Below are positions 37,205 through 53,055 of a DNA stretch of 64,000 nt, piece after piece (within the stretch, counting starts at the first letter, position 1; each line of letters opens with the position of its first letter). Source of the stretch: Xanthobacteraceae bacterium (GTDB lineage: Bacteria; Pseudomonadota; Alphaproteobacteria; Rhizobiales; Xanthobacteraceae); NCBI GenBank assembly GCA_019635635.1, contig JAHBZB010000002.1, positions 767,204-831,203 on the forward strand, given 5' to 3'. Below the pieces are notes generated by a model. The model was given only the letters and a program-made list of their open reading frames with translations, had not been told where the DNA came from and searched no databases. A program made the translations under genes and the position numbers.

Positions 37205-37834
37205 TCATCCCCGAAGCGAAAAAATCTGCTGGTAGATACGAATAATCCCGGACGCCTCGGCCAATGCTGCCGTTGCGCTTGCCACGTGCAGCGATTCCCG
37301 ATCGTCGGATTCCAGCAGCAGCAGACCGGCAAATGTGTTGTCGCTGGTACGAAGATCGCGTTCATTGGTACGAAGCTCCGTCTTTTTCCGGTCTGTTTCG
37401 AGAAAATGCACCGACCGGATTCCGGACGCAGCCGCGACGCCTTCCAGCAAGTTCTCGGGCCTTGATGGTGCGGCGTCGAAGCCGATCGCCATGATCAAGC
37501 CCGCGGGTTCTTTGCGTCTGCGCGCCTTTACCGTGCCGCCTGCCCTTCCGAAATTGCCCAGAATTGGCATGATCCGCCGGGACCACGGCGTCGGGCTATT
37601 CAGCCGATCGAGATAGGCCGCGCTATCGACGACGTCGGCATTCCTCAATTCGTACCAGATGAAATACTGGCGGCCGCCTTCGATGGGCCGCATGAAAATC
37701 CGGACCGCGAGAAAGCCAGGGATTCCAAGCCGCTCGTGGACATGCTCGGTCGTGAGCCAGGCCAGGTAGTCTTCATCCTGCTCAGCCTTCACGTCGCTGA
37801 GCACGACAAGAAAGCCTTCTTCCGCGTCGCTCAC
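37205..37834 (-). CDS. Hypothetical protein with two dimeric alpha-beta-like halves (DUF4286/EthD-like)
   Basis: A 209-residue soluble protein starting at GTG with GGGAG upstream. The first half (FLVVLSDVKAEQDEDYLAWLTTEHVHERLGIPGF in pattern) looks like the ferredoxin-like barrel of small EthD/DUF4286 proteins, which often sit in catabolic operons. The second half, around residues 110-200, may be a repeat of the same fold. It is the last gene of the long minus-strand operon that starts at 53055, 104 bp after fdxA. Function unknown. Confidence 0.6.
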   Translation of the reverse strand: MSDAEEGFLVVLSDVKAEQDEDYLAWLTTEHVHERLGIPGFLAVRIFMRPIEGGRQYFIWYELRNADVVDSAAYLDRLNSPTPWSRRIMPILGNFGRAGGTVKARRRKEPAGLIMAIGFDAAPSRPENLLEGVAAASGIRSVHFLETDRKKTELRTNERDLRTSDNTFAGLLLLESDDRESLHVASATAALAEASGIIRIYQQIFSLRG

Positions 37835-37938
37835 TTTCGACTACTCCCGCATTGCCGCCGGTAATTTGTCGGGCATTTTCGCTACCGCGTGCATCACAAG
37901 GATATAGCCGTCGCGGCTGTTCTCGCTAGTGCACGGCC

Positions 37939-38271
37939 TCACCGCCCGGCTGGTTTGACGGATAACAACGCGAGCTTGTTCGGCTTGTCCTTCCAGAATT
38001 CGGCGTCTTCAGGCGCGGAGCCTTTCTCCGTAATTCTGGGCCAGACCGAACTGTAATCCTTGTTGAGCGTGACCCAGCTCTCCAGGCCTTCCGCCGTATC
38101 GGGTCTGATCGCTTCTACCGGACACTCCGGCTCGCATACGCCGCAATCGATGCATTCGTCCGGATTGATAACGAGCATGTTCTCGCCTTCATAAAAGCAA
38201 TCGACCGGACAAACCGAAACACAATCCATGTGCTTGCACTTGATACAGTTCTCGGTGACGACGTAGGTCAT
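37939..38271 (-). CDS. fdxA: 7Fe ferredoxin (3Fe-4S plus 4Fe-4S), FdxA type
   Basis: A 110-residue ferredoxin. Cys9, Cys17 and Cys50 fit the 3Fe-4S cluster, and Cys21, Cys40, Cys43 and Cys46 the 4Fe-4S cluster, as in Azotobacter ferredoxin I. The long C-terminal tail ([13 protein letters not shown]) is typical of FdxA. It is encoded 11 bp after a ferredoxin-NADP reductase gene, so the two are likely redox partners serving the oxygenase or flavoprotein of the same operon. Confidence 0.93.
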
Positions 38272-38282
38272 TGCTTTTCCTT

Positions 38283-39056
38283 TCAGGCGTCGGCAAAGGC
38301 TTTTTCAACGACGAAGTGGCCTGGCTTGGAACCGCTGCCTTCTTCGAAGCCGAGGCTCAGGAAATAACCGCGGAGGTCTTTCACCATCTCCGGACTGCCG
38401 CAGATTTCGATGCGGTCGTGCTCGCTGTCGAGTGCAGGCTGCGCGGTATCCTCGAACAATCTTCCGGACGCAATGAGATCGGTGATACGGCCGCGATTGA
38501 CGAACGGCTCGCGCGTCACGGTCGGATAATAGACGAGCTGCTTTTTCACAAACGCACCGACGAATTCGTCGTTCGGCAAGCCTTCCGTGATCATTTCGCC
38601 ATAGGCGAGTTCGGCAACCTGCCGGCAGCCATGCACGAGGATCACGGTTTCAAACCGCTCATAGGTCTCTGGATCCTTGATGACGCTCAGAAACGGCGCG
38701 AGGCCCGTGCCGGTGCCAAGTAGATAGAGTCGCTTGCCCGGCAGAAGATTGTGGTGCACGAGCGTCCCGGTCGCCTTTCGGCCGATCAGAACCTGATCGC
38801 CATCCTTCAAGTGTTGAAGCCGCGAAGTCAGCGGGCCATCGGGTACCTTGATGCTGAAGAACTCGAGCTCGTCTTCATAGGTCGCGCTTGCGAGGCTGTA
38901 GGCGCGCATGAGCGGCCTGCCGTCGATCTCGAGACCCAGCATCGTGAACTGACCGCTGTCGAAACGAAACGACTGATCCCGGCTGGTCCGGAAGCTGAAA
39001 AGCGATTCCGTCCAATGATGAACATGCGTCACGCGTTCGCGGAAGAAGTTGCTCAT
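38283..39056 (-). CDS. fpr: Ferredoxin-NADP+ reductase
   Basis: A 257-residue bacterial [25 protein letters not shown] binds [21 protein letters not shown] binds the pyrophosphate, and the sequence ends [10 protein letters not shown]. It moves electrons between NADPH and the FdxA ferredoxin encoded next to it. It lies within the catabolic operon rather than alone, so it is probably a dedicated copy. Confidence 0.93.
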
Positions 39057-39076
39057 TTTCTTGTTCCTTGCCGTCG

Positions 39077-40708
39077 TCAGTCGATGGTGAAATTCAGACC
39101 GCCGCTACCGGTCACGAGACCGGTATCCTCATAGGCGACGGTATGGCCCTTCAGCGGCCACTGATACTCGCAGCACGCGATCATCCCTTCGCGCAGCACG
39201 GCGTGCCCGGATGCGGTGAATTGCACATGGGAAAGATTGTTCTTGCCGAGCACGTGGCCAACGTCGCGATCGAAGTCGGCCGGCACCGCGACGGCGCGGG
39301 AGAGCGTGTTCCCCGGCAAATTCACACGCTTCAGATCCTCGACGGCGAGCCGATGAATCGAAGCGCCGTCCGCGCCGATTTTGCACGCGGGAATGAGCCG
39401 GTCGACGACGCTGTCACGGAAGATTTGGTAGATTTCCTCGCCGTCTTTCGTCAGGCAAAGCGTGCGGGCGATGTCGGAGCAGCCGAGCAGAGTGCCGCTT
39501 CGGTCGAAAATCATGCAGCCCGCATCGATCTTCAGCGTATTGATACGCTCGTCGATCGGATGGGCCGCCGGGTTCGAAGGAAATATCGTCCGGTTGCCGC
39601 AATGGAAATTCGTTAGCGTGCGCGCGACGCGTAGTTCCGGCGCATGCGCGGAAACATAGCCATAGAGTTCATCGAGATAGACTTTATATGCGTCCATCTC
39701 CGTAATGCGCGATGAACGATGCATCGAGGCGAACGCCAGCGCTTTCATGATCGCGTGTGCGGACGCTCGTGCCGCGAGAATATAAAACGCGAGGTCGGGC
39801 AGCGTGCTGCTGTCGCGCCACATCCGGACCAGATTGTCGGCGGGCACCGCTTCCCGGTCGCGCAGGCCCATCGCAGAAAACATCCACGCGGGCATGTCGT
39901 CCATTTCGACGCCTGCACGCCCCTTACCGGTAATCTCTTCAATTGCGGCCCGTAATGACGGATATTCCTTGCCTTCCGACTGCGGCCCAGCGGCGATCCG
40001 CCAAAGACCTTTGTCGCGCGAATAGACCGCGGCAAGCGCGCGGCTATTCCCGCGCATCGGCAAGCCTGTCAGTTCCTGAACATTGAGCGCGGAAGTGACG
40101 ATCAGCGACTGCAAATCTTCGCCGCTAAGCAGCTTGTCCAGAAGCGCGAAGCGGCCGTCTTCGTGCCGATCCAGAAAACCGCTGAGCGCCTCCCGGTGCC
40201 GCGACTTCTCGATAATTTTCTTTGCAATCCTGCGTCCGTTCGGTCTTTCGCGCGACAGAACCTCGAGCACTTCGTGCGGCTCGAGCCGCCTCGCGCGTAC
40301 CGAGCCTATTCCCATCATGTTGTCGAAAGAGATTTCGAAACGCTTCTCGAGCCTGCGAACGATGGATTGCGGAACGTGGTCGTCGAGAACAAGTTCACGC
40401 TCGCCTGCCGCCAATTCGTCGAGCAATTCCTCGAGATTGCGCTTAACGGCCGGCGACTGCTCGCCAGCGTCGAAATTGTAGTACGGGTTGTAGAAGCGCT
40501 GTTCGATCTGCGCGGGAAGCATCGCGGCCTGTGCGTTCCCTTTCTCCACGTGAAGAAACAGGCCGAAGCGCTTGCCGTCCTTCTTCTCCAGAATGAACGG
40601 CGTCACGGTCTTCGCATTGTCGAACGAGCGGATCGCCATCAGGAACCTGTCCGGAAGTGCGCAGCCGAAGGCGTGCTCGATCGTCGGCCAATGCGAATGA
40701 AGACGCAT
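39077..40708 (-). CDS. M24-fold (creatinase/prolidase/aminopeptidase P-like) protein with a novel N-terminal extension
   Basis: A 543-residue soluble protein. From about residue 300 it follows the pita-bread M24 fold, and all five metal ligands appear to be present: Asp395 (IDAG), Asp412 (SDIAR), His485 (GHVLG), Glu514 (CEYQW) and Glu527 (YEDTG). Residues about 200-260 look like the creatinase N-terminal domain. The first 190 residues match nothing I know. M24 members include dipeptidases, creatinase and ectoine hydrolase. The gene lies 4 bp after a 2Fe-2S protein in the catabolic operon, so hydrolysis of an amide or C-N bond in the substrate is possible. The similarity is weak; the precise reaction is unknown. 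Confidence 0.6.
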   Translation of the reverse strand: MRLHSHWPTIEHAFGCALPDRFLMAIRSFDNAKTVTPFILEKKDGKRFGLFLHVEKGNAQAAMLPAQIEQRFYNPYYNFDAGEQSPAVKRNLEELLDELAAGERELVLDDHVPQSIVRRLEKRFEISFDNMMGIGSVRARRLEPHEVLEVLSRERPNGRRIAKKIIEKSRHREALSGFLDRHEDGRFALLDKLLSGEDLQSLIVTSALNVQELTGLPMRGNSRALAAVYSRDKGLWRIAAGPQSEGKEYPSLRAAIEEITGKGRAGVEMDDMPAWMFSAMGLRDREAVPADNLVRMWRDSSTLPDLAFYILAARASAHAIMKALAFASMHRSSRITEMDAYKVYLDELYGYVSAHAPELRVARTLTNFHCGNRTIFPSNPAAHPIDERINTLKIDAGCMIFDRSGTLLGCSDIARTLCLTKDGEEIYQIFRDSVVDRLIPACKIGADGASIHRLAVEDLKRVNLPGNTLSRAVAVPADFDRDVGHVLGKNNLSHVQFTASGHAVLREGMIACCEYQWPLKGHTVAYEDTGLVTGSGGLNFTID

Positions 40709-40712: not shown

Positions 40713-41048
40713 TCAGCCTTCCGCGGTGAACGAGAATTGATTCTCGCGCGCCATGCTGAGATCGACCACGGTATCTTTCACCCGCAGCGTCGCCTTGACC
40801 GGCTCAATCACCATGCCGTCCGTCACGGGCGTAACGCAGGCGGTTTCGATCTTGCCATTTGCACGCACCACGCAACAGGCGCACATGCCGCGGCGACACG
40901 ACAGGTAGTAGCCGATGCTGCCGTCGTAATTCCGCGCGACGTACTGGAGCGCGCTGCTGATGCTGGCGAGCCCCTCATCGGGAATCTCATATTCGTCCTG
41001 CCGCACTTCGGCGCCGTCTGCGCCGCCTCTGACCAGTGTGATACGCAT
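40713..41048 (-). CDS. Stand-alone 2Fe-2S protein equal to the N-terminal domain of fumarate reductase/succinate dehydrogenase subunit B
   Basis: A 111-residue protein with Cys51, Cys56, Cys59 and Cys71 in the CX4CX2CX11C arrangement of FrdB/SdhB, the preceding ISSALQYVARN segment, and nothing of the second domain that carries the 4Fe-4S and 3Fe-4S clusters. It is encoded 9 bp after a fumarate-reductase-like flavoprotein, its obvious partner. The two missing clusters are of the same type as those in FdxA, encoded in the same operon. Confidence 0.8.
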   Translation of the reverse strand: MRITLVRGGADGAEVRQDEYEIPDEGLASISSALQYVARNYDGSIGYYLSCRRGMCACCVVRANGKIETACVTPVTDGMVIEPVKATLRVKDTVVDLSMARENQFSFTAEG

Positions 41049-41057: not shown

Positions 41058-42773
41058 CTATTTCGTTTCGTTGCCGGCGACGGCAACCCGCCGGGTCTGC
41101 AACGTGCCGTCCTTCAGCGAAACGACCGTGTTGTGGTGAAACTCCGGCTTCTGTTCGCGAAAATCGTCGCGATAATGCGCGCCTCGACTTTCCTCGCGAA
41201 TGACCGCCGACATCGCGATCGCCTCGACCGTGAGCGCAGCGCTCTGGACTTCCTGCGCATCGATCCAGTTGCGATTGTAGCGGCGATCCTTTGAAGCACT
41301 GAACATTCTTGTCACTTCGCCTGCACGGAGCGCCCTGATTTCCCTCAAGCCTTGCGCCATGTTGCTGCCGTTGCGCACGACGTTGAGCGTACGGTTGGCG
41401 ATATCCTGAATCTGCGATGCAAGCGTATGCGGCTGCACGCCGTCGCTTGCGAGCAGCGGCGCTTCGACCTCGGCGAGTTTTTCCTTCCAGTCGGCGGCGT
41501 CGATCTCCGGCATCGGCGCGGAGCTCGCGAATTGCGCTGCGGAGCGGCCGGCAATCCGGCCCTGGACGAGAAACTGGCTACAGGCATTTCCGGAGAGCCG
41601 GTTCGCACCGTGCACGCCGCCCGCGATCTCGCCGCAGGCGAGCAGACCCGGCACCGCCGTGCCGCACTCCGCGTCGATACGCACGCCACCCATATTGAAG
41701 TGGCTGGCGGGCGCGACCTCGACCGCGTAACCCTGCTTGATGCGCTCGATCAGCGGCCGGAAGTCGAAGCCTTCCCAGTGCCACGTCTCGCGCAGGAGCG
41801 GCTTGCCGTACCATTTCGGCAGGAACTCCAGAATGTCGTGCGGAAGATGCGCCCACGACATGAAGACACCACCGCCCGGTCCGCCCCGGCCTTCCTGCAC
41901 CTCGCGCACGCAAGCGATCGAAATCTTGTCGCGTGTAGACATCTCCATGCGCTCGGGATCGTAACGCGCCATGAAGCGCTCGCCGTAGCGATTGAGCAGC
42001 CAGGCGCGCGTGCTGCTTTGCGGGCCGATAATCCAGGGAAACTGAATGCCGCGCCAAAGCGGCGGGTTGACGAGACAGCACGGCAGGAACTGCACCATCT
42101 CCATATCGATGAGTTCGGCGCCCGCACGCAGCGCCATCCGATAGCCGTCGCCGACCAGTTCTTCCGGCGCGGTGCGGAACGGATGGATCATGGCAGAGCC
42201 GCCGGTCGCAAGAATTACGGTCTTGGCGGCCAGACTGTGCGCCTCGCCGGTACGAAGATCGATACCCGCTATGCCGGTGACGCCGTCGGCATTGCGAAGC
42301 ACGTCGGTGACGTAGAACTCGTCACGGAAGCGCGCGCCTGCCGCGACTGCGCGGCGTGTGAGAATTTGCAGCAACTGCATGCCGGAGATTAGAACACCGC
42401 GCGGAAAGCGATGTCCCGGCGCGTGGCCGATACCCGCCACCTTCAATCCGGCCTCGAGCAGCGGCTTCAGTTCTTCGCCGACATGACTGATCATGCTCTG
42501 CACGAGGGCGCTCTGATTGAGGTAAGCGCCGCCCGTCATAGTGTCATCGTAGAAATCGCGGTCGCTGTCGCCTTCGTTCCCGCGCAGGCCGAGATAGTTG
42601 CGAATGGTTTTGCCGTCTACCGAGATGTCGCCGGTGATCGTCGCGGTCGCGCCCGAGCGGCCGACCTGCCCTTTCGTGAGCAGCACGACGTTCAAGCCGT
42701 GCTTCGCCGCTTCTTCTGCCGCAACCAGACCGGCAGCTCCGCTCCCGACAACGATTACATCCACATTCGTCAT
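41058..42773 (-). CDS. Fumarate reductase/succinate dehydrogenase-type flavoprotein
   Basis: A 571-residue FAD protein. GSGAAGLVAAEEAAKHGL (residues 10-27) binds FAD, ASHFNMGGVRID and GEIAGGVHGANRLSGNA form the dicarboxylate/capping region, and ESRGAHYRDDF resembles the SdhA C-terminal motif. The residue that carries covalent FAD in SdhA/FrdA is not evident (GRSGATATITGD), so FAD is probably non-covalent, as in soluble fumarate reductases. ATG 42773 has AGGA upstream. With the 2Fe-2S protein it probably oxidises or reduces a C-C bond next to a carboxylate in the degradation route. Confidence 0.82.
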   Translation of the reverse strand: MTNVDVIVVGSGAAGLVAAEEAAKHGLNVVLLTKGQVGRSGATATITGDISVDGKTIRNYLGLRGNEGDSDRDFYDDTMTGGAYLNQSALVQSMISHVGEELKPLLEAGLKVAGIGHAPGHRFPRGVLISGMQLLQILTRRAVAAGARFRDEFYVTDVLRNADGVTGIAGIDLRTGEAHSLAAKTVILATGGSAMIHPFRTAPEELVGDGYRMALRAGAELIDMEMVQFLPCCLVNPPLWRGIQFPWIIGPQSSTRAWLLNRYGERFMARYDPERMEMSTRDKISIACVREVQEGRGGPGGGVFMSWAHLPHDILEFLPKWYGKPLLRETWHWEGFDFRPLIERIKQGYAVEVAPASHFNMGGVRIDAECGTAVPGLLACGEIAGGVHGANRLSGNACSQFLVQGRIAGRSAAQFASSAPMPEIDAADWKEKLAEVEAPLLASDGVQPHTLASQIQDIANRTLNVVRNGSNMAQGLREIRALRAGEVTRMFSASKDRRYNRNWIDAQEVQSAALTVEAIAMSAVIREESRGAHYRDDFREQKPEFHHNTVVSLKDGTLQTRRVAVAGNETK

Positions 42774-42790: not shown

Positions 42791-43795
42791 CTAGCTCAGT
42801 ATTTCGATTGCGCCGATCGCAGCGAACGCGATGAACGCAGTCTCGGCGATCATCAGCGCAACCGGCTTCCAGCCCAGCGACACCACCTGCTGGAACGACG
42901 TTTTTACGCCCAGCGCCGCTATGGCGACGACGAGGCACCAGCGCGATGCGGCAGACATTCCTTCGACGGCCGGCGCGGGTATCCACCCGAAGCTGCTTAC
43001 GATCGCAAGCGTGCAGAAGCCGATCAGGAACAACGGCAACAGCGGCGGCCGCGCCTCCGTTTCGTCCGCCGCACTATTGCGAAATATGAGCGTCGCAACG
43101 AAAACCACCGGCACCAGCAGGCTCACTCTGAAAAGTTTTACGACCGTTGCGGTGTCGCCGGCGGCATCCGAAAATAGATAGCCCGCACCTACCACTTGCG
43201 CGACATCGTGAATCGACGCTCCGATGAAGATGCCGGACTGCAAATCGGAAAATCCCAGGAGCTTCGCAAGCGCCGGGTAGACCACCATGGCGATGGTGGA
43301 CAATGTCGTAACGCCGACGACCGTGAGCACCGTCATCCGATGCTTGTCTTTGCCGGAAGGGAGTGCCGCGGAAATCGCGAGCGCGGCTGATGCCCCGCAG
43401 ATCGCGACCGCGCCGCCTGTCAGGAGACCAACTCTCGCGCGATAGGAAAACAATCGCGCGCATGCAATTCCGAACGAGATGGTCAGCAACACGATGAATG
43501 CGACGGCCGCCATCTGTAGCCATCCAATCTGCGCCACTTTTGCGAACGTGATCCGTGCGCCAAGAAGCGCGACGCCGATCCGTAGAATCGTGCGGCCCGC
43601 AAAATCGATACCCGGCTTGGTGCGCGGATCGGCGGCAAGAAAATTGAACGCAATCCCGAAGAACAACGCGTAAAGCAACTGCGGCCCGCCATAGCGATCC
43701 GAAACAAGCGTCGCCGCGAAAGCGACAGTCACGGCCAAAAGCAGGCCCGGTCCGCGCGAGAATCCTTTCTGAACGTTTTCAGCAACGACGCTCAT
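42791..43795 (-). CDS. YeiH/UPF0324-family membrane protein (putative sulfate exporter family)
   Basis: A 334-residue protein with about ten transmembrane helices and the family's GRTILRIGVALLGARIT, AICGASAALAI and GASIHDVAQVVGAGY segments. The family is called putative sulfate exporter because members accompany genes that release sulfite from organosulfonates; direct proof of transport is thin. Here it is in an operon with a MetC-like lyase and a flavin monooxygenase, which would fit export of an inorganic sulfur product. It overlaps a small upstream gene by ATGA. Confidence 0.82.
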   Translation of the reverse strand: MSVVAENVQKGFSRGPGLLLAVTVAFAATLVSDRYGGPQLLYALFFGIAFNFLAADPRTKPGIDFAGRTILRIGVALLGARITFAKVAQIGWLQMAAVAFIVLLTISFGIACARLFSYRARVGLLTGGAVAICGASAALAISAALPSGKDKHRMTVLTVVGVTTLSTIAMVVYPALAKLLGFSDLQSGIFIGASIHDVAQVVGAGYLFSDAAGDTATVVKLFRVSLLVPVVFVATLIFRNSAADETEARPPLLPLFLIGFCTLAIVSSFGWIPAPAVEGMSAASRWCLVVAIAALGVKTSFQQVVSLGWKPVALMIAETAFIAFAAIGAIEILS

Positions 43796-43953
43796 AGCCG
43801 CTCACCCGGTGAGAGCGGCCAGCGAGCCGAAGTCTGATTCGAGATCTGGCGGATCTGCTTAAGCAACGCCTCGGCCACGGCAGGATTGGCTGCGTTGTGC
43901 AACTGTGCAGCTGCGCCGGGAACCGTAGTAATATGCCGTGCGCAATCAAGCAT
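43792..43953 (-). CDS. Small hypothetical protein coupled to the YeiH-type exporter
   Basis: A reading frame of 53 codons fills the otherwise empty 150 bp between the crotonase stop and the exporter start, and ends in an ATGA overlap with the exporter, which suggests that it is translated. The product is Ala-rich and helical (NAANPAVAEALLKQIRQIS) and ends SPGERL. A GTG at 43986 could extend it to 64 residues, overlapping the crotonase. No family recognised. Confidence 0.4.
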   Translation of the reverse strand: MLDCARHITTVPGAAAQLHNAANPAVAEALLKQIRQISNQTSARWPLSPGERL

Positions 43954-44710
43954 CAGGCGCCACTCTGCGGCCGGAAGCGCCGACACGACGCGCTGAATTT
44001 GCGTAAGCGACGATGCGATCGCGCAGCCCCGGAGCGGCGGCACTGCGCACAAGGCTGGCGAGATCTTGATCACGCAGATCGGGCCGCGATGCGCGATAAA
44101 TATCATTCAATGTCGCGCGCTGAACAGTGAGCTTGGGAAGGTCCGCCGTGATCCAGCTTTCTACGCTTTCGCGTTCGGTAAGATCCGTTGCCAGACCGGC
44201 GCTGCGAGCCTCGCCGGCACCTATCTCTTCATTCGCCGCGATCCAGCGGCGCGCAGTCGTCTCGCCCACCCTCGTGCAAAGCCGGCGAGTGCCGAGCACG
44301 ATGCCAAATCCCGCGCCGGGAAAGCGAAACGTCGCGGTTGATTTCGCGATCCGGAAATCGCATGCCGCAAAAATATCCGCCCCTGCGCCCCAGGTTCTGC
44401 CAGTGGCGAAAGCCGCGGTACGAATGGGTGCATGCCAGATTTCCGAGAGCAGCAGTTCGATCTCGACGAAACGCAGCAGGATATCACCGTCACTTTGATC
44501 CTCTAGCCCCGCAAGATCGAAGCCGGTGCAGAGGTTCCGTCCGGCGCCGGAAATCGCGACGGTATCGACGTTCTGATCGGCGAAGACTTCTTGCAGGGCA
44601 TAGCGAAGCTCGCGGACCATTTCCACCGAAAGCGCGTTTCCGCGTTCGGGCTGATTGAGTTCTACTATCGCCGAGCGCTCTACAATCTTGCGGGATATCA
44701 GGGCACTCAT
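43946..44710 (-). CDS. Enoyl-CoA hydratase/isomerase (crotonase) family protein with altered active site
   Basis: A 254-residue crotonase-fold protein. The oxyanion-hole segments GAGRNLCTGFDL and GRTWGAGADIFAACD are present. The two glutamates of classical enoyl-CoA hydratase are replaced: the first position reads Asp (GAGADIF) and the second Gly (FPGAGFGI). It may therefore be an isomerase, hydrolase or decarboxylase acting on a CoA ester. ATG 44710 lies 1 bp after the stop of the MetC-like gene; longer frames upstream are shadows of that gene. Confidence 0.78.
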   Translation of the reverse strand: MSALISRKIVERSAIVELNQPERGNALSVEMVRELRYALQEVFADQNVDTVAISGAGRNLCTGFDLAGLEDQSDGDILLRFVEIELLLSEIWHAPIRTAAFATGRTWGAGADIFAACDFRIAKSTATFRFPGAGFGIVLGTRRLCTRVGETTARRWIAANEEIGAGEARSAGLATDLTERESVESWITADLPKLTVQRATLNDIYRASRPDLRDQDLASLVRSAAAPGLRDRIVAYANSARRVGASGRRVAPDA

Positions 44711-44711
44711 T

Positions 44712-45902
44712 TCAATACTTTCCCAGCATGACTGCTGCGGCGTCGAGGTCGGCAATGAGATCTCGGATATCCTCGAAACCGGCGTGGAAACGCACCAGCG
44801 GTCCGTAGTTTTCTCCGTCAATCGAACGGATCGTGCGCTCATTCTCGACGCGCACGAGGCTTTCAAATCCGCCCCACGACGAGCCGAGACCGAACAGCGA
44901 AAGCGAATTGACGAAACGATCGACCGATGCGGCATCGACGCCGCGAAGCTCGACGGTAAAAAGACCACATGATCCCGTGAAATCTCTCTTCCAGATTTCG
45001 TGGCGCGGATGGTCTTCCAACTCGGGATAATAAATCTTCCGGACAAACGGCTTGCCGGCAAACCACTCGATTAGCCGCATGGCCTGCCTGCGATGCTCCT
45101 CGATACGGATCGCGGCGCTTCGCGCACCACGCAGGACTTGATAGCAATCGTCCGGCGACGCGCAGGTACCGAGCCAATCTGCTGTTTCATTTAAGCGCTT
45201 CCAGGCGCTTTCATTGGCGACAGCCGCACCGAGGATCACATCGGAGGCGCCGCAGAGATATTTGGTTGCAGACAACACGGAGATATCCGCGCCGAGTCGA
45301 ATGGGATGATGCGTTACGCCCGACGCCCATGTGCTGTCGACCGCGACGACTATCCCCTTCGGTTTCGCGATGGCTGCGATAGCGGGAATATCGACGAGCT
45401 CGAACAGGACCGATCCGGGATTCTCGAGATAAATCAGCTTCGTGTTTGAGCGAATCCTACCCTCGATATCGGAGCCATCAGCGCGGACATAGTCGAAGGC
45501 GATTTGCTGGTCCGAGAGATAGGATTTTACGAAGCGCTTCACGGGTGCGTAGACGCCGTCCGAAATCAGCAGGTGATCCCCGGGACGCAGAAACGCGAGA
45601 AACACGAGTGTGTTCGCGGCAAGACCGCTCGACGCGAGCCGCGCGCCATGGCCGCCTTCGAGTTCCGTGAGCAAATCCTCGAGTTGGAAACTCGTCCCCG
45701 TGCCCCGGCGGCCGTAATAATCCTCGCGCGCGCCGCCGAGGCGCCGCTGCTCGGTAGCGCGCATTTCTTCGGCGGTCGCATGAAGATAAGTGCTCGCGCG
45801 AACGAGCGGCGGGTTTACCGGAACGGGCAGACCGGAAGCCGGCCGGCCGGCATGGATCAGAACCGACCGCTGCTTATGAGCTTTGTCGTCATTTCCGGCC
45901 AC
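44712..45902 (-). CDS. Cystathionine beta-lyase-like PLP enzyme (MetC type)
   Basis: A 396-residue Cys/Met-metabolism PLP enzyme. DYYGRRGTGTSFQLEDLL, LIYLENPGSVLFELVDIPAI, Lys214 in SVLSATKYLCGASDV (PLP) and SLSLFGLGSSWGGFESLV line up along their length with E. coli MetC. Such enzymes cleave C-S bonds by beta-elimination, giving a thiol and 2-aminoacrylate. Finding it together with RidA, which deaminates 2-aminoacrylate, supports lyase activity in the pathway rather than in methionine synthesis. Confidence 0.85.
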   Translation of the reverse strand: MAGNDDKAHKQRSVLIHAGRPASGLPVPVNPPLVRASTYLHATAEEMRATEQRRLGGAREDYYGRRGTGTSFQLEDLLTELEGGHGARLASSGLAANTLVFLAFLRPGDHLLISDGVYAPVKRFVKSYLSDQQIAFDYVRADGSDIEGRIRSNTKLIYLENPGSVLFELVDIPAIAAIAKPKGIVVAVDSTWASGVTHHPIRLGADISVLSATKYLCGASDVILGAAVANESAWKRLNETADWLGTCASPDDCYQVLRGARSAAIRIEEHRRQAMRLIEWFAGKPFVRKIYYPELEDHPRHEIWKRDFTGSCGLFTVELRGVDAASVDRFVNSLSLFGLGSSWGGFESLVRVENERTIRSIDGENYGPLVRFHAGFEDIRDLIADLDAAAVMLGKY

Positions 45903-45910: not shown

Positions 45911-47059
45911 CTATGCGGACTTCATAATGGTTGGTTGCGCGAAAACTTCCTCGGTGTGCTCGCCGAGCGCGGGAGGATTTCGATAGATTTCCAGACCCTC
46001 CCCGTTGATCGTGATCGGAGAGCCGAAGGTCTTGATCGACGCTCCCTCGGGAATATTCATCGATTTGACCCAGCCGTAGTGTTCGACCTGCGGGTCACTC
46101 AACGCTTCTGAATAATTGTTGATCGGCGCACAAGGAACTCCGCGTTCGTTCATGATCCGGAGGCAGTGGTCGGCGGTCAGATCGGCGAAAGATGTTTCCA
46201 GCAGCTTGCGCAGCTCCACCTGGTTCTGGGCGCGCAGCTCGGGCGAAGTGAAGCGCGAATCGCCAACCAGTTCGGTGCGGCCAATTGCTTCGCAGGTTCG
46301 CTGGAAAAGGCTGTCGTTGCCGGCAGCAAGAACAAAGTATCCGTCCTTGCAGCGAAACGCCTGGTAGGGAGCGTTCCGCGGATGCGCGGAGCCGAGCTTC
46401 ACCGGGTTGCGGTTGGTTCCGAAATACTCGCTCACCTGAAGCGCCGCGATACCAAGCGTCGCGCCGAGCATCGGAATATCGAGATGCGCGCCACGGCCGC
46501 CATTCTGTACGCGGCGTAGAAGGCTGGTTACCGAAAACGCTGCGTAAAGGCCGGCCGCGAAGTCCGTAAGCGGCACACCGCACTTCACCGGCTCGCCGTC
46601 CGGCTCGCCGGTTACGCTCATGACGCCGCCGATCGCCTGCAAGGTTACGTCGAACCCGCCCTCGTTCGCGCGCGGGCCCTTCTGTCCGTATGCCGATATC
46701 GAACAGTAAATCAGCGACGGCTTCGTTTCGCTCAGCGCTGCGTAACCCATGCCGAGACGTTCCATCACGCCCGGCCTGAAGTTTTCGAGCACAACATCCC
46801 CCGACAGGCAAAGATCCTTGGCACGCTTGAGATCGGCGGCATCTTTCAGATTAAGTACGACCGAGCGCTTGTTGCGATTGAGCGAAGCGAAGTTTTCCGA
46901 ATAGCCCTTGGTCAATGGCGGCCAGGAACGCATGCCGTCACCGTCCGGCGACTCTACCTTGATGACGTCTGCACCCATGTCAGCGAGCAGCATTCCGGCG
47001 AACGGGCCGGAGGCGATCTGACAGAACTCGACGACGGTTATCCCTTCTAGCGGCAGCAT
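45911..47059 (-). CDS. CaiB/BaiF family III CoA-transferase
   Basis: A 382-residue family III CoA-transferase, which moves CoA between carboxylic acids. The opening LEGITVVEFCQIASGPFAGMLLADMGADVIKVE is typical, and the catalytic Asp is probably that in CGVPLTDFAAGLYAAFSV (after MSVTGEPDGEPV). It likely activates a carboxylic intermediate for the crotonase and SDR enzymes. It stops 8 bp before the MetC-like gene. Confidence 0.88.
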   Translation of the reverse strand: MLPLEGITVVEFCQIASGPFAGMLLADMGADVIKVESPDGDGMRSWPPLTKGYSENFASLNRNKRSVVLNLKDAADLKRAKDLCLSGDVVLENFRPGVMERLGMGYAALSETKPSLIYCSISAYGQKGPRANEGGFDVTLQAIGGVMSVTGEPDGEPVKCGVPLTDFAAGLYAAFSVTSLLRRVQNGGRGAHLDIPMLGATLGIAALQVSEYFGTNRNPVKLGSAHPRNAPYQAFRCKDGYFVLAAGNDSLFQRTCEAIGRTELVGDSRFTSPELRAQNQVELRKLLETSFADLTADHCLRIMNERGVPCAPINNYSEALSDPQVEHYGWVKSMNIPEGASIKTFGSPITINGEGLEIYRNPPALGEHTEEVFAQPTIMKSA

Positions 47060-47109: not shown

Positions 47110-47925
47110 TCAGCTTTTCGGCAGATCCATCGTCAGGTGCGAGACCTCGGCCACGCCGGCAGTCCGGCCGCCGTCGACGGGAAGCACGGCGCCGGTGATG
47201 TATTTCGCTTCGTCCGAGGCAAGGAAAAGCGTGGCAGCCGCGATGTCATCCGCCTCGCCAATTCGGCCAAGGGGAATGACCATGGAAGTACGGCGCCAGT
47301 TGTTGTCGAAATCGCCGGAAGCCTTGAGTGCGCCACGCAGCATCGGGGTATCGATCGAACCGGGGCAGATGCAGTTCACACGGATGTTCAGGGCCGCGAG
47401 CGAAAGCGCCATCGACTTTGTCAGCGACACCACGCCTGCCTTGGTGGCGCCATACATTGGCTGCCAAGGTCTACCAACGATACCGGCGTTCGACGCATCA
47501 TGGACGATCGACCCGCCGCCCGCTTTCTGCATGTGCGGAATGACGGCCTGACTTGCGTACATCAGGCCTTTCAGATTCACGCCAACCAGAAAATCCACAT
47601 CATCGCTACTGGTATCGACGAACGGCTTGGTCAGCGTGACTCCGGCATTGTTGACGAGCACGGTGACCGGACCAAACTGCGCCACCGCTTCGGCGACGAG
47701 CCCGGATATATCGTCTTTCCTGGTGACATCGCCTGCCTTGGCGACGACTTTCGTGCCGCCCTTCTTTAGTTCGTCGGCAACGGCGGTTAGCGTGGCCGCA
47801 TCCTTATCGAGCAGGCCGAGTGCCGCGCCTTCCCGCGCAAACATCCGGGCCGTTGCCTGCCCGATACCGTTGGCGGCTCCGGTTACGATCGCAACCTTGC
47901 CGGCCAGTCTTCCATTAGTTGTCAT
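47110..47925 (-). CDS. Short-chain dehydrogenase/reductase
   Basis: A 271-residue classical SDR: VTGAANGIGQATARMF binds the cofactor (Asp after strand 2 in GLLDKD favours NAD), LVNNAGVT is the structural motif, and the catalytic set is Ser in DASNAG with Tyr and Lys in YGATK. PGSIDTPM follows. It probably oxidises a hydroxyacyl or alcohol intermediate of the operon's pathway. Substrate unknown. Confidence 0.88.
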   Translation of the reverse strand: MTTNGRLAGKVAIVTGAANGIGQATARMFAREGAALGLLDKDAATLTAVADELKKGGTKVVAKAGDVTRKDDISGLVAEAVAQFGPVTVLVNNAGVTLTKPFVDTSSDDVDFLVGVNLKGLMYASQAVIPHMQKAGGGSIVHDASNAGIVGRPWQPMYGATKAGVVSLTKSMALSLAALNIRVNCICPGSIDTPMLRGALKASGDFDNNWRRTSMVIPLGRIGEADDIAAATLFLASDEAKYITGAVLPVDGGRTAGVAEVSHLTMDLPKS

Positions 47926-47958: not shown

Positions 47959-48426
47959 CTAGTCTTCGATTTTCGGAGCGGGCCCAGCGGGCTCGAACTG
48001 GTCGAGGCGGGAAATTCCGCAGAAGATCGGTATCGGCCATGCTTCGATCTGCATGATCTTCGCCGGCTTGTCCGGATCACGATTGATATGCCGGTGCGGC
48101 ACGTTAGGCGGCAGATAGAACGTGTCGCCGACTTCCCAATCGATGGTTTGGTCGCCGATGATCTCCCTGCCCTTGCCTTCGAGCACATATGCGACAGCCT
48201 CGAAGGTGTGCTGATGCAGCCCGGACTGGCGGCCCGGCGGTATCTCCGTCAGCAACATTCCGAAGAACTTCGCGTTCATCCCGGTCGTCTCATCAACGAT
48301 GATCGCATTGCGGCCCTGTGGGCTCGTATGCCACTGCACATCCTTCGCCTTGATGATCAGCTTGCCTTTGTACGTGTAAGTCTCGGCTTGCCGACGCATC
48401 AGGCTTTCGTAAAACGTCTCACCCAT
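47959..48426 (-). CDS. Cupin-domain protein
   Basis: A 155-residue single-cupin protein. Motif 1 is in PPGRQSGLHQHTFEAVAYVLEGKG (HXH and Glu metal ligands) and motif 2 in GDTFYLPPNVPHRHIN. Metal binding is likely. Cupins of this size include dioxygenases, isomerases and lyases, and sequence alone does not decide. It lies between ridA and the SDR gene. Confidence 0.8.
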   Translation of the reverse strand: MGETFYESLMRRQAETYTYKGKLIIKAKDVQWHTSPQGRNAIIVDETTGMNAKFFGMLLTEIPPGRQSGLHQHTFEAVAYVLEGKGREIIGDQTIDWEVGDTFYLPPNVPHRHINRDPDKPAKIMQIEAWPIPIFCGISRLDQFEPAGPAPKIED

Positions 48427-48441: not shown

Positions 48442-48822
48442 TCAATCGCAGACTGCAATGGCTTCGATCTCAACGATGAAGCCGCCGAGCAGACCGCCTT
48501 GCAGCGTCGTACGCGCGGGAAAGTTGGGACCCTTGAAGACTTCCGAAAACGCCTCGTTGAAGCCGACATAATCGGTCGGGAAATTTGGCAGGATGCAGGT
48601 GAGCTTCATGATCTTGTCGAGCGAGCTGCCCGAGGCCTCGAGCACCGCCTTCAGATTCTTCAGCGTCTGCCGGGTCTGCTCCTTGATATCGCCGAGCATC
48701 GGCTTGCCGGTTTCGCCGTCGAAGGCAACCTGCCCCGCGACATAGACGACACCGTTATGCTTCACGGCCTGCGAGAACGGACCCTTGGGCATAGTGGGCG
48801 GCGTGGTTTTTACGACTTCCAT
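48442..48822 (-). CDS. ridA: RidA-family enamine/imine deaminase
   Basis: A 126-residue YjgF/RidA/UK114 protein with GPFSQAVKHNGVVYVAGQVAFD at the start and FPARTTLQGGLLGG near the end; the latter contains the conserved Arg that holds the substrate carboxylate. RidA hydrolyses 2-aminoacrylate and similar enamines. ATG 48822 has GGAGAGG in front; an upstream in-frame TTG lies inside that site. It probably clears the product of the MetC-like lyase. Confidence 0.88.
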   Translation of the reverse strand: MEVVKTTPPTMPKGPFSQAVKHNGVVYVAGQVAFDGETGKPMLGDIKEQTRQTLKNLKAVLEASGSSLDKIMKLTCILPNFPTDYVGFNEAFSEVFKGPNFPARTTLQGGLLGGFIVEIEAIAVCD

Positions 48823-48850: not shown

Positions 48851-49681
48851 TCAGAGACCTGCGCCCAATTCTTGACTGCGCTTGGTCGAGCGACCCTTCA
48901 CGAAAATCCGCTCGGCGTACTCGACCGCGAAATAAAAGATGAAGCCGATCGCGATAAGCCAGATGATCGCTGCGAACACGAGCACCATGTTGAGGCTGGC
49001 GCGCGCCTCGACGAGTACGTAGCCGAGGCCCGCCTCGGATGCGACGAACTCGGCAACGATCGCGCCGACGACCGCGAAGGTCATGCCAATCTTCAAGCCT
49101 GAGAAGATGTGCGGCAGCGCGGTCGGAAGACGGACTTTCCAGAACGATTGCCAGCGCGAACCGCCCATCGAGCGCAGGAGCATCAGGCTTTCCGGACGAA
49201 CCGCAGAAAGTCCGGCGAGCGTATCGACCACGATCGGGAAGAACGCGATCAGGAAAGTCATCAGAACTTTCGGGATCAGGCCGAATCCGAACCACACGAT
49301 AAAGAGCGGCGCGAGGGCAACCTTCGGCAATACCTGCGCGGTAATCAGGATCGGGTAGATCGCCCGGTTGAACGCATCCGAGTAGATCATGAGCGTCGCG
49401 ATCGGAATTCCGATAACAACCGCGAGACCGAAACCGAGCAGGATCGCCCAGATGGTGGAAAGCGCGTGCCGGAACAGGAGCGGCGACTCGGCAACGGCCA
49501 CATGCGCAACCTTGCTGGGCGGCGGCAACATATAGATCGGAATGTTGAGCAGCCGAACAACTCCCTCCCACAATAGAAGGAGAGCGAGAATTGAAAGTAC
49601 CGGGACCAGCCAACGCACCGAACTTTTCGCTGGTGGTTTCTTTTTTACTTCAGTTTGCATGGCCACAGCCGCATCAGTCAT
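48851..49681 (-). CDS. NitT/TauT-family ABC transporter permease
   Basis: A 276-residue permease with an N-terminal basic tail, six helices and the coupling loop SAVRPESLMLLRSMGGSRWQS. The start at 49681 overlaps the ATPase gene by 8 bp; ATG 49660 is the alternative. It works with the ATPase (49674-50465) and binding protein (50507-51532). This family imports sulfonates, nitrate, pyrimidine precursors and aromatic acids. Confidence 0.87.
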   Translation of the reverse strand: MTDAAVAMQTEVKKKPPAKSSVRWLVPVLSILALLLLWEGVVRLLNIPIYMLPPPSKVAHVAVAESPLLFRHALSTIWAILLGFGLAVVIGIPIATLMIYSDAFNRAIYPILITAQVLPKVALAPLFIVWFGFGLIPKVLMTFLIAFFPIVVDTLAGLSAVRPESLMLLRSMGGSRWQSFWKVRLPTALPHIFSGLKIGMTFAVVGAIVAEFVASEAGLGYVLVEARASLNMVLVFAAIIWLIAIGFIFYFAVEYAERIFVKGRSTKRSQELGAGL

Positions 49682-50465
49682 TGGTGAAAACCCCGAGGTC
49701 CTTGAACATCTCACGTATGTGGCCGGTGTAGGCATTGAACTCGCTGGAATCGCGAATGCCGAGCTTGCGCGGCCTAGGCAAGTCAATCTTGATGTCTTCC
49801 GCGACCGACGCCGGACGGCCGGTCATTACGACCACGCGATCCGACAGGAACACGGCCTCGTCGATACTGTGCGTCACCAGGATCGCGGTCTTGCGCTTCT
49901 CGAGCCAGATGCGTTGCAGATCGATATTCATCTGGTCGCGCGTCATGGCATCAAGCGCGCCAAACGGTTCGTCCATGAGAAGAATATCCGGGTCGTGCAC
50001 GAGCGCGCGGCATAGCGCGACGCGCTGCTTCATGCCGCCCGAGAGTTCGTCGGGATAACGATCCTCGAAGCCGCTCAGGCCAACCTGACTCAAGAGCTGC
50101 TTCGCGATCGGGATATACGTGTTGATATCCAGCTTGCGGATTTCCATTTGGAGCAGAATGTTCTGGAGCGCCGTGCGCCACTCGAGCAGCTCGGCATTCT
50201 GAAAAACGATTCCGATGTCCGTGTACGGATCTACGATCTTCTTGCCTTCGATCTGGACCTCGCCTTTTGAAGCCGCCGACAGACCGGCAACAATCATCAT
50301 CAGCGTGGTTTTTCCGCATCCGCTCGGCCCCAGCAGCGAAACGAACTCGCCCTGCTTGATCTTCAGGCTGACGCTGGACAGCGCCGGAACGTCTTCTCCC
50401 GTGTCCGACTGATAAACTTTTGCGACTGACCGGATATCGATGAACGATGCAGATGTCTGGTCCAT
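49674..50465 (-). CDS. NitT/TauT-family ABC transporter ATP-binding protein
   Basis: A 263-residue ATPase with Walker A LLGPSGCGKTTLM, signature LSGGMKQRVALCRA and Walker B ILLMDEPFGALDA. ATG 50465 follows GAGGATC; ATG 50477 would add four residues but leaves no ribosome site. It is the middle gene of a three-gene importer. Confidence 0.88.
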   Translation of the reverse strand: MDQTSASFIDIRSVAKVYQSDTGEDVPALSSVSLKIKQGEFVSLLGPSGCGKTTLMMIVAGLSAASKGEVQIEGKKIVDPYTDIGIVFQNAELLEWRTALQNILLQMEIRKLDINTYIPIAKQLLSQVGLSGFEDRYPDELSGGMKQRVALCRALVHDPDILLMDEPFGALDAMTRDQMNIDLQRIWLEKRKTAILVTHSIDEAVFLSDRVVVMTGRPASVAEDIKIDLPRPRKLGIRDSSEFNAYTGHIREMFKDLGVFTND

Positions 50466-50506
50466 TTCGATCCTCATAATGCTATCCGGTCAGCCGCGCG
50501 TTGGTT

Positions 50507-51532
50507 TTACTTCTTAAGATATTCGTTGGTGAAGACCATTTCCGGCTTCACCGAACCCTTGGGAAGATCGGCATACTCGGTGAGCGTGTCGATCGTCTTC
50601 TGCCAGTCTTCGGCGGCCATAATGCCGTAGGGCTGGTTCGCAGTCGCCTTCGTGTGCAGAAGCTTGATCGTTTCAAGCCACTGACGCTTCACGACTTCCC
50701 GGCTGAAGCGCGCATCCTTCGCATATTTGAAGAACGCATCAATGCCTTTATCGGGATCCTTGACTGCAAGTTCGATGGCTTCCTGAGTCGCAAGTGCGAA
50801 GCGCTTCACGATATCGGGGTTCTTCGCAGCGTATTCGTCACCGACCATCACGCCGTTCGCGACATAGGTGATGTTCAGGTCCGAGTACTTGATGATGTTT
50901 ATCTTGCATTTGCAACGCTCTTCCATGATCGGAAGTTGCGTCACGGTATATCCGAAGCTGAAGTCGATCTGCTTGGTGATGAAGAGATTGTCGCGCGTCG
51001 GAATATCGACTGCAACCCGCGAAATTTTACTGCCGTCAATTCCGGTCGCCTTAACAAAAGCGCCGAATACCTGCTCGGGCGCCGAACCGTTACCGAAGCC
51101 GCCCTTGCGGCCCATGAGATCCTTCGGCGCCTTGATGCCGGAATCCGGCAACGCGAGAATGATCGAGGGCGTCGTTTGCAACATGCCAACGATCTGTTTC
51201 GCCTTCAGGCCTTGGGCCGCGAACTTCACAAGCGTGCCACCATCGGCCCAACCAAACTGGTCGGTTCCCGCAGAGACCACCTGAATGGTGTTGCCCGAAC
51301 CGCGGCCCGGCAACGCCGTCACGTCCAGACCATGCTTCTTATAGATGCCGTCGACGATGCCGAGCAGAATCGGCACATGCGAGCCATAGAAGAAGACATC
51401 CATGCGAATGTTGACGGGCGTCAAATTCTGCGCGGTTGCCGGCGATGCAAAAGATACGAGAAGCAACGCCGCACTTGCTGCGATTGCTCTTGTTCCTCTC
51501 GCGAGTATCTTAGAGATAAGATCAACTTTCAT
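50507..51532 (-). CDS. NMT1/THI5-like ABC transporter substrate-binding protein
   Basis: A 341-residue periplasmic protein with a Sec signal (residues 1-34, ending SPATAQ). The mature part begins LTPVNIRMDVFFYGSHVPILLGIVDGIYKKHGLDV, the NMT1/SsuA-type fold. Proteins of this type bind small pyrimidines, sulfonates, phthalates and other acids. It should take up the substrate of the operon. Confidence 0.87.
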   Translation of the reverse strand: MKVDLISKILARGTRAIAASAALLLVSFASPATAQNLTPVNIRMDVFFYGSHVPILLGIVDGIYKKHGLDVTALPGRGSGNTIQVVSAGTDQFGWADGGTLVKFAAQGLKAKQIVGMLQTTPSIILALPDSGIKAPKDLMGRKGGFGNGSAPEQVFGAFVKATGIDGSKISRVAVDIPTRDNLFITKQIDFSFGYTVTQLPIMEERCKCKINIIKYSDLNITYVANGVMVGDEYAAKNPDIVKRFALATQEAIELAVKDPDKGIDAFFKYAKDARFSREVVKRQWLETIKLLHTKATANQPYGIMAAEDWQKTIDTLTEYADLPKGSVKPEMVFTNEYLKK

Positions 51533-51606
51533 AGTTCCCCTCCGTTTTCGAACGCCTCAGTGGTTGGTCTCGTATTCATGCGAATTCCGGGCCATCCGTC
51601 TCGCAA

Positions 51607-53055
51607 TTAGTGCGTTACGGGTTCATTTGCCGCAGCCGCGATATTTCGATGCGACGACTCATTCTTTTCTTCTCTCTGTTGCTCCGCGTTGATCTCAAAC
51701 TGCCTCGAACGCCGGGCTACGCGCTTGCGCGTCTTTCGCATCACTGCGTCGAGCTCGCGATAGTAGATCTTGCTTTCTTCCTGCATGCTGTGGCGCGCGG
51801 CAGTTCCGTAGTGGCGCGCAATCCATGAATGCTTCGCCGCGATTTGCCTGCGCATTTCGGCGACGCTCGGCAGCGACGCGCCGGTGGACTCTATTTCAGC
51901 GATCCAACGCGCTTGACGCTCGGATGCGTAGTTCACCGGCGTGTCGAGATTAACGATGCCGACGAAATAGAGTCCCGGAGATTCCGGCGGAACGACTCTC
52001 AGATAGAGATCGAGCCGCTCTTTATCGGTGTCGAGAATATCGCGCGACAAAAACGGAAATGCCGTCACGTAGCCGGTCGCGGCGATTACGACGTCGAACT
52101 CCTGCGTGGTGCCGTCGACGAAAGTTATCTTGTTTTCCTCGATCGATTCGATGCCCTGGCGCACCCTTACGCGGTTGAAAAGAATATCCTGCACGATCGT
52201 CGAGCTGATCGTGGGATGCACACGGTGTTCCAACGGCTTGAAACCGAGTTTCGTCTCCGATCCGTGCACCACATAAACCAGAGACCGGACAATGAACCGC
52301 CTTACCACGTCGGGTATCCACCACCGCTGGAGCGAACGGCCGATATCGTTGAGACTTTTGCCGGCAATGAAATGCGGAACGATCTTCACGGCCGAGCGCG
52401 CAACCAGCGACACCGATTGAGCCGTCGTGCACAGGTCGCTGGCAATATCTACGGCGCTATTGGCAGCACCGACAACGCACACGCGCTTGCCGACGTATCG
52501 CTCGGGTTCGCGATATTCCGCAGCGTGCAGATATTCGCCCGAGAATTTTCTCAGTTCCGGGGAATGTTTGGGCCTGTCGAACGCTCCGCTGCAAACAACG
52601 ACGAAGTCGAAGATGTCGGCCGTATTGTCCCCGGTCACGACTTTCCATTTTGGCCGATCGTGCTCGGCCGGCTGTAACGGGGTCACTTCCCGCACCGGAG
52701 ACCGGAAGCAAATTCGGCGCGTAATGCCGAAATGATCCGCATAGGCCGCGAGATAGCGCGCCATGTCACGATGATCGGGTATCGCCTGGGTCTCGGGCGG
52801 AAACGGAAAGCCGGAGAAAGCCGTCAGGCGCTTCGACGTATTAATATGCAGGTTCTTGTACAGAAACTGGCGGCCGTTATCGTTCCCGTAAGTCCAGGTG
52901 CCGCCGACGAAACTCCCCTTCTCATAGAGGGTAACGTCGAAGCCACTTTCCATAAGTGTTTTGGCAGTAACGAGGCCCGCAGGACCGGCTCCGATCACCG
53001 CCGCGCGGCGAGCCGGATGTTCGTTATTAGGCAATTTTGTCTCATAAATGCCCAT
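51607..53055 (-). CDS. Flavin-containing monooxygenase
   Basis: A 482-residue FMO. GAGPAG at 22-27 binds FAD, the FMO signature FSGEYLHAAEY is at 171-181, and VVGAANSAVDIA about 15 residues later binds NADPH; the ATGY motif is present near residue 330. FMOs insert one oxygen at S or N, or carry out Baeyer-Villiger oxidation. It is the first gene of the 16-kb operon and is divergent from the LysR gene, so it probably makes the first attack on the substrate. The Arg- and Glu-rich C-terminal tail is unusual. Confidence 0.88.
   Translation of the reverse strand: MGIYETKLPNNEHPARRAAVIGAGPAGLVTAKTLMESGFDVTLYEKGSFVGGTWTYGNDNGRQFLYKNLHINTSKRLTAFSGFPFPPETQAIPDHRDMARYLAAYADHFGITRRICFRSPVREVTPLQPAEHDRPKWKVVTGDNTADIFDFVVVCSGAFDRPKHSPELRKFSGEYLHAAEYREPERYVGKRVCVVGAANSAVDIASDLCTTAQSVSLVARSAVKIVPHFIAGKSLNDIGRSLQRWWIPDVVRRFIVRSLVYVVHGSETKLGFKPLEHRVHPTISSTIVQDILFNRVRVRQGIESIEENKITFVDGTTQEFDVVIAATGYVTAFPFLSRDILDTDKERLDLYLRVVPPESPGLYFVGIVNLDTPVNYASERQARWIAEIESTGASLPSVAEMRRQIAAKHSWIARHYGTAARHSMQEESKIYYRELDAVMRKTRKRVARRSRQFEINAEQQREEKNESSHRNIAAAANEPVTH

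Follow-up and report, generated by a model that had tools for sequence, protein, structure and literature searches.

The stretch of DNA analyzed here, 64,000 nucleotides of contig JAHBZB010000002.1 from a Xanthobacteraceae bacterium (assembly GCA_019635635.1) and referred to below as the window, carries on its minus strand, from position 53055 down to 37205, a run of 17 well-supported open reading frames (ORFs) and one doubtful small ORF, with gaps of 150 bases or less. From its start, the run encodes a flavin monooxygenase (FMO); the substrate-binding protein (SBP), ATPase and permease of an ATP-binding cassette (ABC) importer; a Rid protein; a cupin; a short-chain dehydrogenase/reductase (SDR); a CaiB-type coenzyme A (CoA) transferase; a MetC-like lyase; and a crotonase-fold protein. 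After the doubtful ORF come a PF03601 protein, an FrdA-like flavoprotein, a 2Fe-2S protein, an M24 protein, a ferredoxin-NADP reductase (FNR), an FdxA-type ferredoxin and a hypothetical protein.

We ask two questions of this gene run: how was it put together, and what might it degrade? To the first, we argue that the operon is a composite, made of a core module (ABC importer, Rid, cupin, SDR and M24) and a block of sulfur genes. To the second, our tentative answer is a probably acquired, LysR-linked catabolic operon whose two modules serve a small molecule that contains nitrogen and probably also sulfur. The parts belong to known families; what is new is their combination, their modular history and the clade formed by the FrdA-like protein and its 2Fe-2S partner. 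The initial annotation knew of no described pathway with this set, and in the open-access library searched, none of the titles or abstract starts listed describes it.

Layout of the operon

Pfam gathering scores are passed by the FMO, the NMT1-type SBP, the ABC ATPase, the Rid/YjgF protein, the cupin (Cupin_2), the SDR, the class III CoA-transferase, the Cys/Met pyridoxal phosphate (PLP) enzyme, the crotonase, the PF03601 (YeiH) protein, the flavoprotein (FAD_binding_2 and Succ_DH_flav_C), the 2Fe-2S protein (Fer2_3), the M24 protein, and both domains of the FNR and those of FdxA. The families, order and strand first reported for “eighteen” genes divergent from a LysR gene, thus, hold up, as does the LysR gene itself (53154..53999, plus strand; PF00126 and PF03466), with 98 bases between it and the start of the FMO gene; the firm ORFs number 17, and the small protein is doubtful. 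Originally called as a 104-residue ORF (43792-44106), it overlaps the crotonase gene in another frame and matches no family. A shorter, 53-residue form (43792..43953, a reading frame only) is the better fit: it overlaps the stop of the crotonase gene, shares an ATGA with the start of the PF03601 gene and, if real, bridges the 150 bases ahead of that gene. All other intergenic gaps measure 1 to 104 bases, except where the permease (its start corrected to about 49681 by a reading-frame check) overlaps the end of the ATPase. Judged by this spacing, the operon is probably co-transcribed. Terminator-like patterns show no excess (14 vs. 17.3 ± 4.1 by chance), the divergent gap between the LysR and FMO genes shows no sigma-70 consensus, and an Rfam scan of 36000-58700 gave no match at the gathering level.

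Two modules

Locus L012, on contig SCTY01000071.1 of the Betaproteobacteria metagenome-assembled genome (MAG) FW602_bin.15, was compared with the window over 15.6 kb, and 7 of the 19 query proteins find a match there, in identical order. They are the NMT1/SsuA-like SBP (50507..51532, on the minus strand like every gene of the operon; PF09084; 55% identical over 219 residues), the ATPase (49674..50477; PF00005; 65%), the permease (48851..49681; SaoP/TauC-type NCBIfam matches, all under their cut-offs; 61%), the Rid/YjgF imine-enamine deaminase (48442..48822; 79%), the single-domain cupin (47959..48426; PF07883; 67%), the SDR (47110..47925; PF13561; 67%) and the 543-residue putative M24 metallohydrolase of the creatinase/prolidase type (39077..40708; PF00557; 46%). 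The Rid protein scores 99 bits against PF01042 (gathering score 27.3) and falls under the NCBIfam cut-off of TIGR00004 (90.9 vs. 106.25).

The two loci differ between SDR and M24. In L012, these genes are directly adjacent (M24 starts at 3988, just after the SDR end at 3970), and downstream of M24 come genes for a class II aldolase and another ABC importer; in the window, six firm genes (47059-40713) stand between them as a block. The 12 remaining queries (FMO, CaiB, MetC, crotonase, small ORF, PF03601, FrdA, 2Fe-2S, FNR, FdxA, hypothetical and LysR) have no match at 1e-4 in the 15.6 kb, and a search of the whole MAG, made for the FMO alone among these 12, returned one weak 45-residue match. 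We favor insertion of the block into the window operon over its loss from L012. Farther away, a distant M24 relative (25% identical) sits beside a Rid gene and an NMT1-type ABC importer in two Rhodococcus plasmids (3 contexts were opened of 4 plasmid records); beside the Pantoea plasmid relative, the stretch opened holds no annotated Rid gene.

This arrangement changes the part that Rid might play. It had been proposed that the MetC enzyme makes aminoacrylate and that RidA removes it, a coupling that is not supported: in L012, the one conserved relative found, the genes for Rid, cupin, SDR, M24 and the ABC importer share a locus without MetC in the stretch compared, and so, Rid belongs with M24.

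Might there simply be two pathways here, sharing one promoter region? One would be the N-compound core and the other would be an organosulfur-acid pathway of block, FMO, Fpr and FdxA, with no common intermediates. The block does sit cleanly between two genes that are neighbors in L012. However, everything lies on a single strand with short gaps at both joints (50 and 4 bases), and such a join would presumably be kept only if the products meet. We consider two independent pathways quite unlikely.

The block and its sulfur neighbors

The block opens with the CaiB-type (class III) CoA-transferase (45911..47059; PF02515, 405 bits), followed by the MetC-type PLP enzyme (44712..45902), which passes the NCBIfam cut-off for cystathionine beta-lyase (TIGR01324, 379.3 vs. 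365.9 bits). Aligned with E. coli MetC (2fq6/1cl1), its ATKYL, VDSTWASG and VRFHAGFED stretches keep what we take to be the PLP lysine, the aspartate and the substrate arginine of these enzymes. Family score and catalytic residues, thus, support a C-S lyase type of enzyme, as initially annotated. Its 46% relative on an Aminobacter plasmid (the one MetC context opened) sits with cysteine dioxygenase and rhodanese genes. The crotonase-fold protein (43946..44710; PF00378) has, in a comparison by eye, Asp and Gly at what we presume to be the positions of the hydratases’ two catalytic glutamates. The putative exporter of sulfur oxyanions (42791..43795) scores 216.7 bits against PF03601 (gathering score 24.5) and is 46% identical over 287 residues to a “putative sulfate exporter” gene in plasmid locus L008.

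The FrdA-like flavoprotein (41058..42773; PF00890 and PF02910; 571 residues, with the start corrected from 42986 to about 42773) and the stand-alone 2Fe-2S protein (40713..41048; PF13085), which is like the N-terminal part of TfrB/SdhB, complete the block. The flavoprotein is 50% identical to a gene of genome G793; at 1e-75, it has relatives in 2 of 398 genomes of the phylum, host included. Directly downstream of the G793 gene lies a 2Fe-2S gene whose product is 49% identical to the window protein over 77 residues. Among 101 genomes searched around G793, five have an FrdA relative, all of them (G793 included) in one genus, g516, and the order FrdA, 2Fe-2S, JmjC/cupin, SBP5, DszB-like is kept in all five loci. 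In four, the pair is flanked on its other side by a rhodanese gene; the contig of the fifth ends there. The DszB-like assignment comes from the G793 protein alone (PDB 2de2/2de3 at E 3e-20, with the CPVP motif aligned), and the other four proteins match it at 83-92%. This neighborhood is a sulfur context for the FrdA-2Fe-2S pair that is independent of the window. It shares with the window the FrdA clade, the 2Fe-2S partner and the link to sulfur; it differs in having a DszB-like gene in place of MetC, and only FrdA, 2Fe-2S and a generic ABC ATPase matched window proteins.

The sulfur link that the initial annotation drew for the whole operon has split in two. For the inserted block, it is strengthened by the DszB-like and rhodanese neighbors of the FrdA-2Fe-2S pair and by the company of the MetC relative; for the operon as a whole and for the coupling of MetC to RidA, it is weakened.

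Could sulfur be absent altogether? The operon might degrade a sulfur-free N heterocycle or amide, with the MetC-like protein carrying out another PLP reaction (racemization or a non-sulfur elimination) and the PF03601 protein exporting some other anion. The core occurs in L012 without sulfur genes in the stretch compared; distant M24 relatives lie near carbamoylase, hydantoinase/oxoprolinase or Rid genes in plasmid contexts; the operon next door (described below) has two xanthine dehydrogenase (XDH)-type Mo enzymes, a luciferase-like monooxygenase and a flavin reductase; and the MetC-like protein also matches an Ala/Glu racemase model, more weakly and under its cut-off (246.5 vs. 629). Against all this stand the cystathionine beta-lyase score and the recurrence of the FrdA-2Fe-2S pair with DszB-like and rhodanese genes, and we judge a sulfur-free substrate somewhat unlikely.

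An FrdA-like enzyme with one carboxylate site

By alignment, the window and G793 flavoproteins both keep the Arg of STRD/ATRD, the His of PxxHF and the Arg of ANRLSGN/GNRLSGN. In both, the second carboxylate site is lost: QFHP has become QFLP, and the T/E-E-G loop is gone, also by comparison with M. smegmatis Sdh1. The window protein, then, lacks the two complete carboxylate sites expected of a fumarate reductase or succinate dehydrogenase. It also lacks the His that presumably binds flavin adenine dinucleotide (FAD) covalently, its GRSGAT aligning with GKAHT of M. smegmatis Sdh1; the roles of the other sites are, likewise, partly our assumption.

A similar pattern has been described for urocanate reductase (UrdA). 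In the part of that description used here, Arg411, His520 and Arg560 are conserved, hold a single carboxylate and donate a proton, and the fumarate-specific His364/365 of Fcc3 is replaced by Tyr (PMC7921117). As in this enzyme and other Frd-like enoate reductases, the window protein keeps the carboxylate-binding and proton-donor residues and has its second-carboxylate His replaced (PMC7921117). Residues were matched between Sdh, Fcc3 and UrdA by motif position, not by a structure of the window protein, which we have set beside UrdA by published description rather than by direct comparison of sequences. Because the catalytic Arg and one carboxylate site are kept and the second is lost, as in urocanate reductase, we infer that the flavoprotein may be a soluble, NADPH-fed reductase of monocarboxylate enoates. 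It would be powered differently: the same source describes UrdA with an N-terminal domain bearing flavin mononucleotide (PMC7921117), whereas in the window the 2Fe-2S protein is a separate one, and FNR and FdxA are encoded close by.

Could the resemblance to urocanate reductase be more literal? The substrate might be ergothioneine or another thioimidazole or thiohydantoin, with FrdA acting as a thiolurocanate reductase, M24 opening the ring and the neighboring operon taking part through its S-Me-THD family protein, luciferase-like monooxygenase and Mo hydroxylases. The active-site pattern would fit, as would an S-Me-THD family gene in an adjacent operon on the same strand and an FMO whose best NCBIfam match is trimethylamine monooxygenase, far under the cut-off as that match is. 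However, the operon proteins scanned have no aromatic-lyase (ergothionase-type) Pfam match (no genome-wide search for ergothionase was made), S-Me-THD (DUF917) proteins form a broad family, and of the neighboring operon’s proteins, the ABC ATPase and permease alone matched L012. We regard ergothioneine-type degradation as very improbable.

Other relatives of the flavoprotein are more distant. At E ≤ 1e-60, they occur in 9 of 101 near genomes, host included; tblastn of eight near-genome stretches gave FrdA identities of 30-33% and a 2Fe-2S match in three of the eight, with no CaiB, MetC, crotonase or YeiH match in any. In three of these loci (L025, L027 and L029), the distant FrdA-like paralogues adjoin XDH-type Mo enzymes. 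Plasmid relatives (29-33% identical; four contexts, L005-L008, opened from 25 rows listed of 509 records) are Sdh-like. Fumarase-like genes accompany them in three of the four contexts (L005, L006 and L008), and a TauE/SafE exporter accompanies them in three (L005, L007 and L008), once also with a YeiH-type gene; UxaA-family genes are present in L005 and L007. These sets look like dicarboxylate- or sulfonate-type catabolic clusters, suggestive only because the rows were chosen by hand. An AprA-type adenylylsulfate (APS) reductase is not among the 25 of 66 NCBIfam matches listed for the window protein, the best of which are of Tfr, Sdh and NadB types, and we have dropped that identity.

M24, electron-transfer proteins and origin

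Residues D395, D412, H485, E514 and E527 of the M24 protein, which we take to be the five metal ligands of the family, are invariant in six sequences. A low-confidence model (predicted local distance difference test score 62, from a three-row alignment) has creatinase 1kp0 as its top fold match (E 4e-9), and its next matches include prolidases and DddP lyases. The gene is rare. It is present in 1 of 200 relatives searched (the host itself), in the host and one other of 385 genomes of the class and, with a three-row profile, in 1 of 398 genomes of the phylum (again the host); the cupin, at 1e-20, is likewise found in 1 of 398, the host. A pattern-based scan of an 84,980-species collection gave at least two loci, one apparently the contig of the class search; this is a lower bound, because the scan reaches only relatives with one of two short peptide patterns. 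Because none of the 199 other relatives has the M24 gene, the operon is probably acquired, and lateral acquisition is the simplest reading. The initial view of one catabolic gene run is supported. The G+C content of the operon genes is 55-63%, compared with 61-65% in the flank to the left, as far as 36 kb. The expectation that FMO, MetC, CaiB, FrdA and M24 would recur as a conserved set is not borne out: no locus opened has them together, and M24 alone is very rare.

Three more genes with family matches, and one without, lie outside both modules. The FMO (51607..53055; 482 residues; PF00743, 219.5 bits) contains FSGEYLHAAEY, presumably of the FxGxxxHxxxY type; its best NCBIfam model, trimethylamine monooxygenase NF058570, gives 104.3 against a cut-off of 675, and its plasmid relatives (41-48%) sit, in the three contexts opened, in unlike catabolic sets. 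The Fpr-type FNR (38283..39056; best NCBIfam model NF008178, 158 bits, below the cut-off of 390) has no other close copy in the genome, where its relatives reach 27-30%, and FdxA (37939..38271; NF045490, 160.5 over a cut-off of 135) is a second copy, with the other 65% identical. These figures agree with the suggestion that the operon brings its own redox chain. The hypothetical protein (37205..37834; 209 residues) has a sub-threshold DUF4286 match only and no NCBIfam match.

A possible pathway

How might these parts work together on one molecule that contains nitrogen and sulfur? In the core, the NMT1-type importer would take up the N-containing small molecule, M24 (with its putative creatinase fold and its metal ligands kept) would hydrolyze a C-N bond, Rid would hydrolyze the resulting enamine or imine, and the SDR would convert the carbonyl product. 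In the combined pathway, the FMO could oxygenate the molecule at S or N; the MetC-type enzyme of the block would then eliminate the sulfur-bearing group, CaiB would make the CoA thioester of the carbon acid for the crotonase-fold enzyme, and the PF03601 protein would export a sulfur oxyanion. FrdA and its own 2Fe-2S protein would reduce an alpha,beta-unsaturated monocarboxylate, with electrons passing from NADPH through Fpr, FdxA and 2Fe-2S to FAD. The most likely class of substrate is an N-substituted or heterocyclic, cysteine-like organosulfur acid.

One can go further, to a proposal that we ourselves think unlikely: M24 and Rid release a cysteine-like core, the MetC-type enzyme frees its sulfur, and a new soluble Frd-like clade, using a private 2Fe-2S protein that takes electrons from NADPH via Fpr and FdxA, reduces the leftover enoate. 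The block would have replaced the class II aldolase step of L012, switching the operon from C-C to C-S cleavage.

Several findings weigh against the two-module, nitrogen-and-sulfur reading. The core is seen in L012 alone, the contig of which begins inside the SBP gene, leaving the genes upstream of it outside the contig. Rid, cupin, SDR and M24 occur there without a sulfur gene in the stretch compared, so the substrate of the core need not contain sulfur. None of the loci opened has the complete CaiB-MetC-crotonase-YeiH-FrdA-2Fe-2S block. The genome has another MetC-like copy (39%) and weaker ones, so the operon copy may be a duplicate that has changed its role. The exporter, annotated as YeiH-type, keeps that name at the level of PF03601 but misses the subfamily cut-off (TIGR00698, 133.6 vs. 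232.6). Sulfonate import of the SsuA type was considered and rejected (SBP against TIGR01728, 50.5 vs. a cut-off of 163.5). The nearest matches of the JmjC neighbor in G793 are YxbC and a putative asparaginyl hydroxylase, which does not make it obviously catabolic, and the direction of the FrdA reaction is our supposition.

Known systems offer partial likenesses. The Rut pyrimidine pathway presumably follows the same logic of flavin monooxygenase, amide hydrolase, Rid deaminase and reductase. RutA is luciferase-like and RutB is an isochorismatase-like hydrolase, whereas the window has an FMO and M24, plus the C-S lyase and CoA genes. The order ABC-Rid-cupin-SDR-M24 is shared with L012, which differs by the aldolase and second importer after M24 and by having no sulfur block in the stretch compared. 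The 3,3'-dithiodipropionate (DTDP) cluster of Advenella mimigardefordensis, in the part of its description used here, includes genes for a class III CoA-transferase, a thiol dioxygenase and a desulfinase along with solute receptors, and growth requires the LysR gene that lies upstream (PMC5373536). The LysR gene, the class III CoA-transferase and a cluster of putative organosulfur type are common to both; the genes named in that part of the source include no MetC-like lyase, M24, Rid, FrdA-2Fe-2S, FNR/FdxA or PF03601 (PMC5373536), all of which the window operon has. Conversely, the operon proteins scanned gave no Pfam match of the acyl-CoA dehydrogenase (desulfinase) or cysteine dioxygenase type, in contrast to a DTDP-type cluster.

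If the two-module reading is true, the locus would be a testable example of a catabolic operon changing its substrate by taking in a gene block. It would also add a clade of Frd-like proteins that have a 2Fe-2S partner of their own and are found next to sulfur genes in two unrelated settings, and it would name candidate genes for organosulfur turnover.

Neighboring genes

The next operon to the right, on the same strand, occupies 54315-64000 of the window, continues at 1743-7515 of L060 and ends with a flavin reductase (54315-54959). It holds an IclR-like gene (by sequence), an NMT1-type ABC importer and two XDH-type Mo enzymes; its luciferase-like monooxygenase and S-Me-THD (DUF917) genes lie beyond the window. 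It looks like an operon for catabolism of N- or N,S-heterocycles and, together with the modular build, is an addition to what was first annotated. Compared with L012, its ABC ATPase and permease are the sole matches; compared with all other loci fetched, only ABC, XDH-type and IclR matches appear. The Mo and FAD subunits of one XDH-type enzyme are fused, Mo part first, in a single 1143-residue ORF (58659-62090). At 5484-10125, the window also has ordinary genes of the phenylacetyl-CoA epoxidase type (paa) with PaaX.

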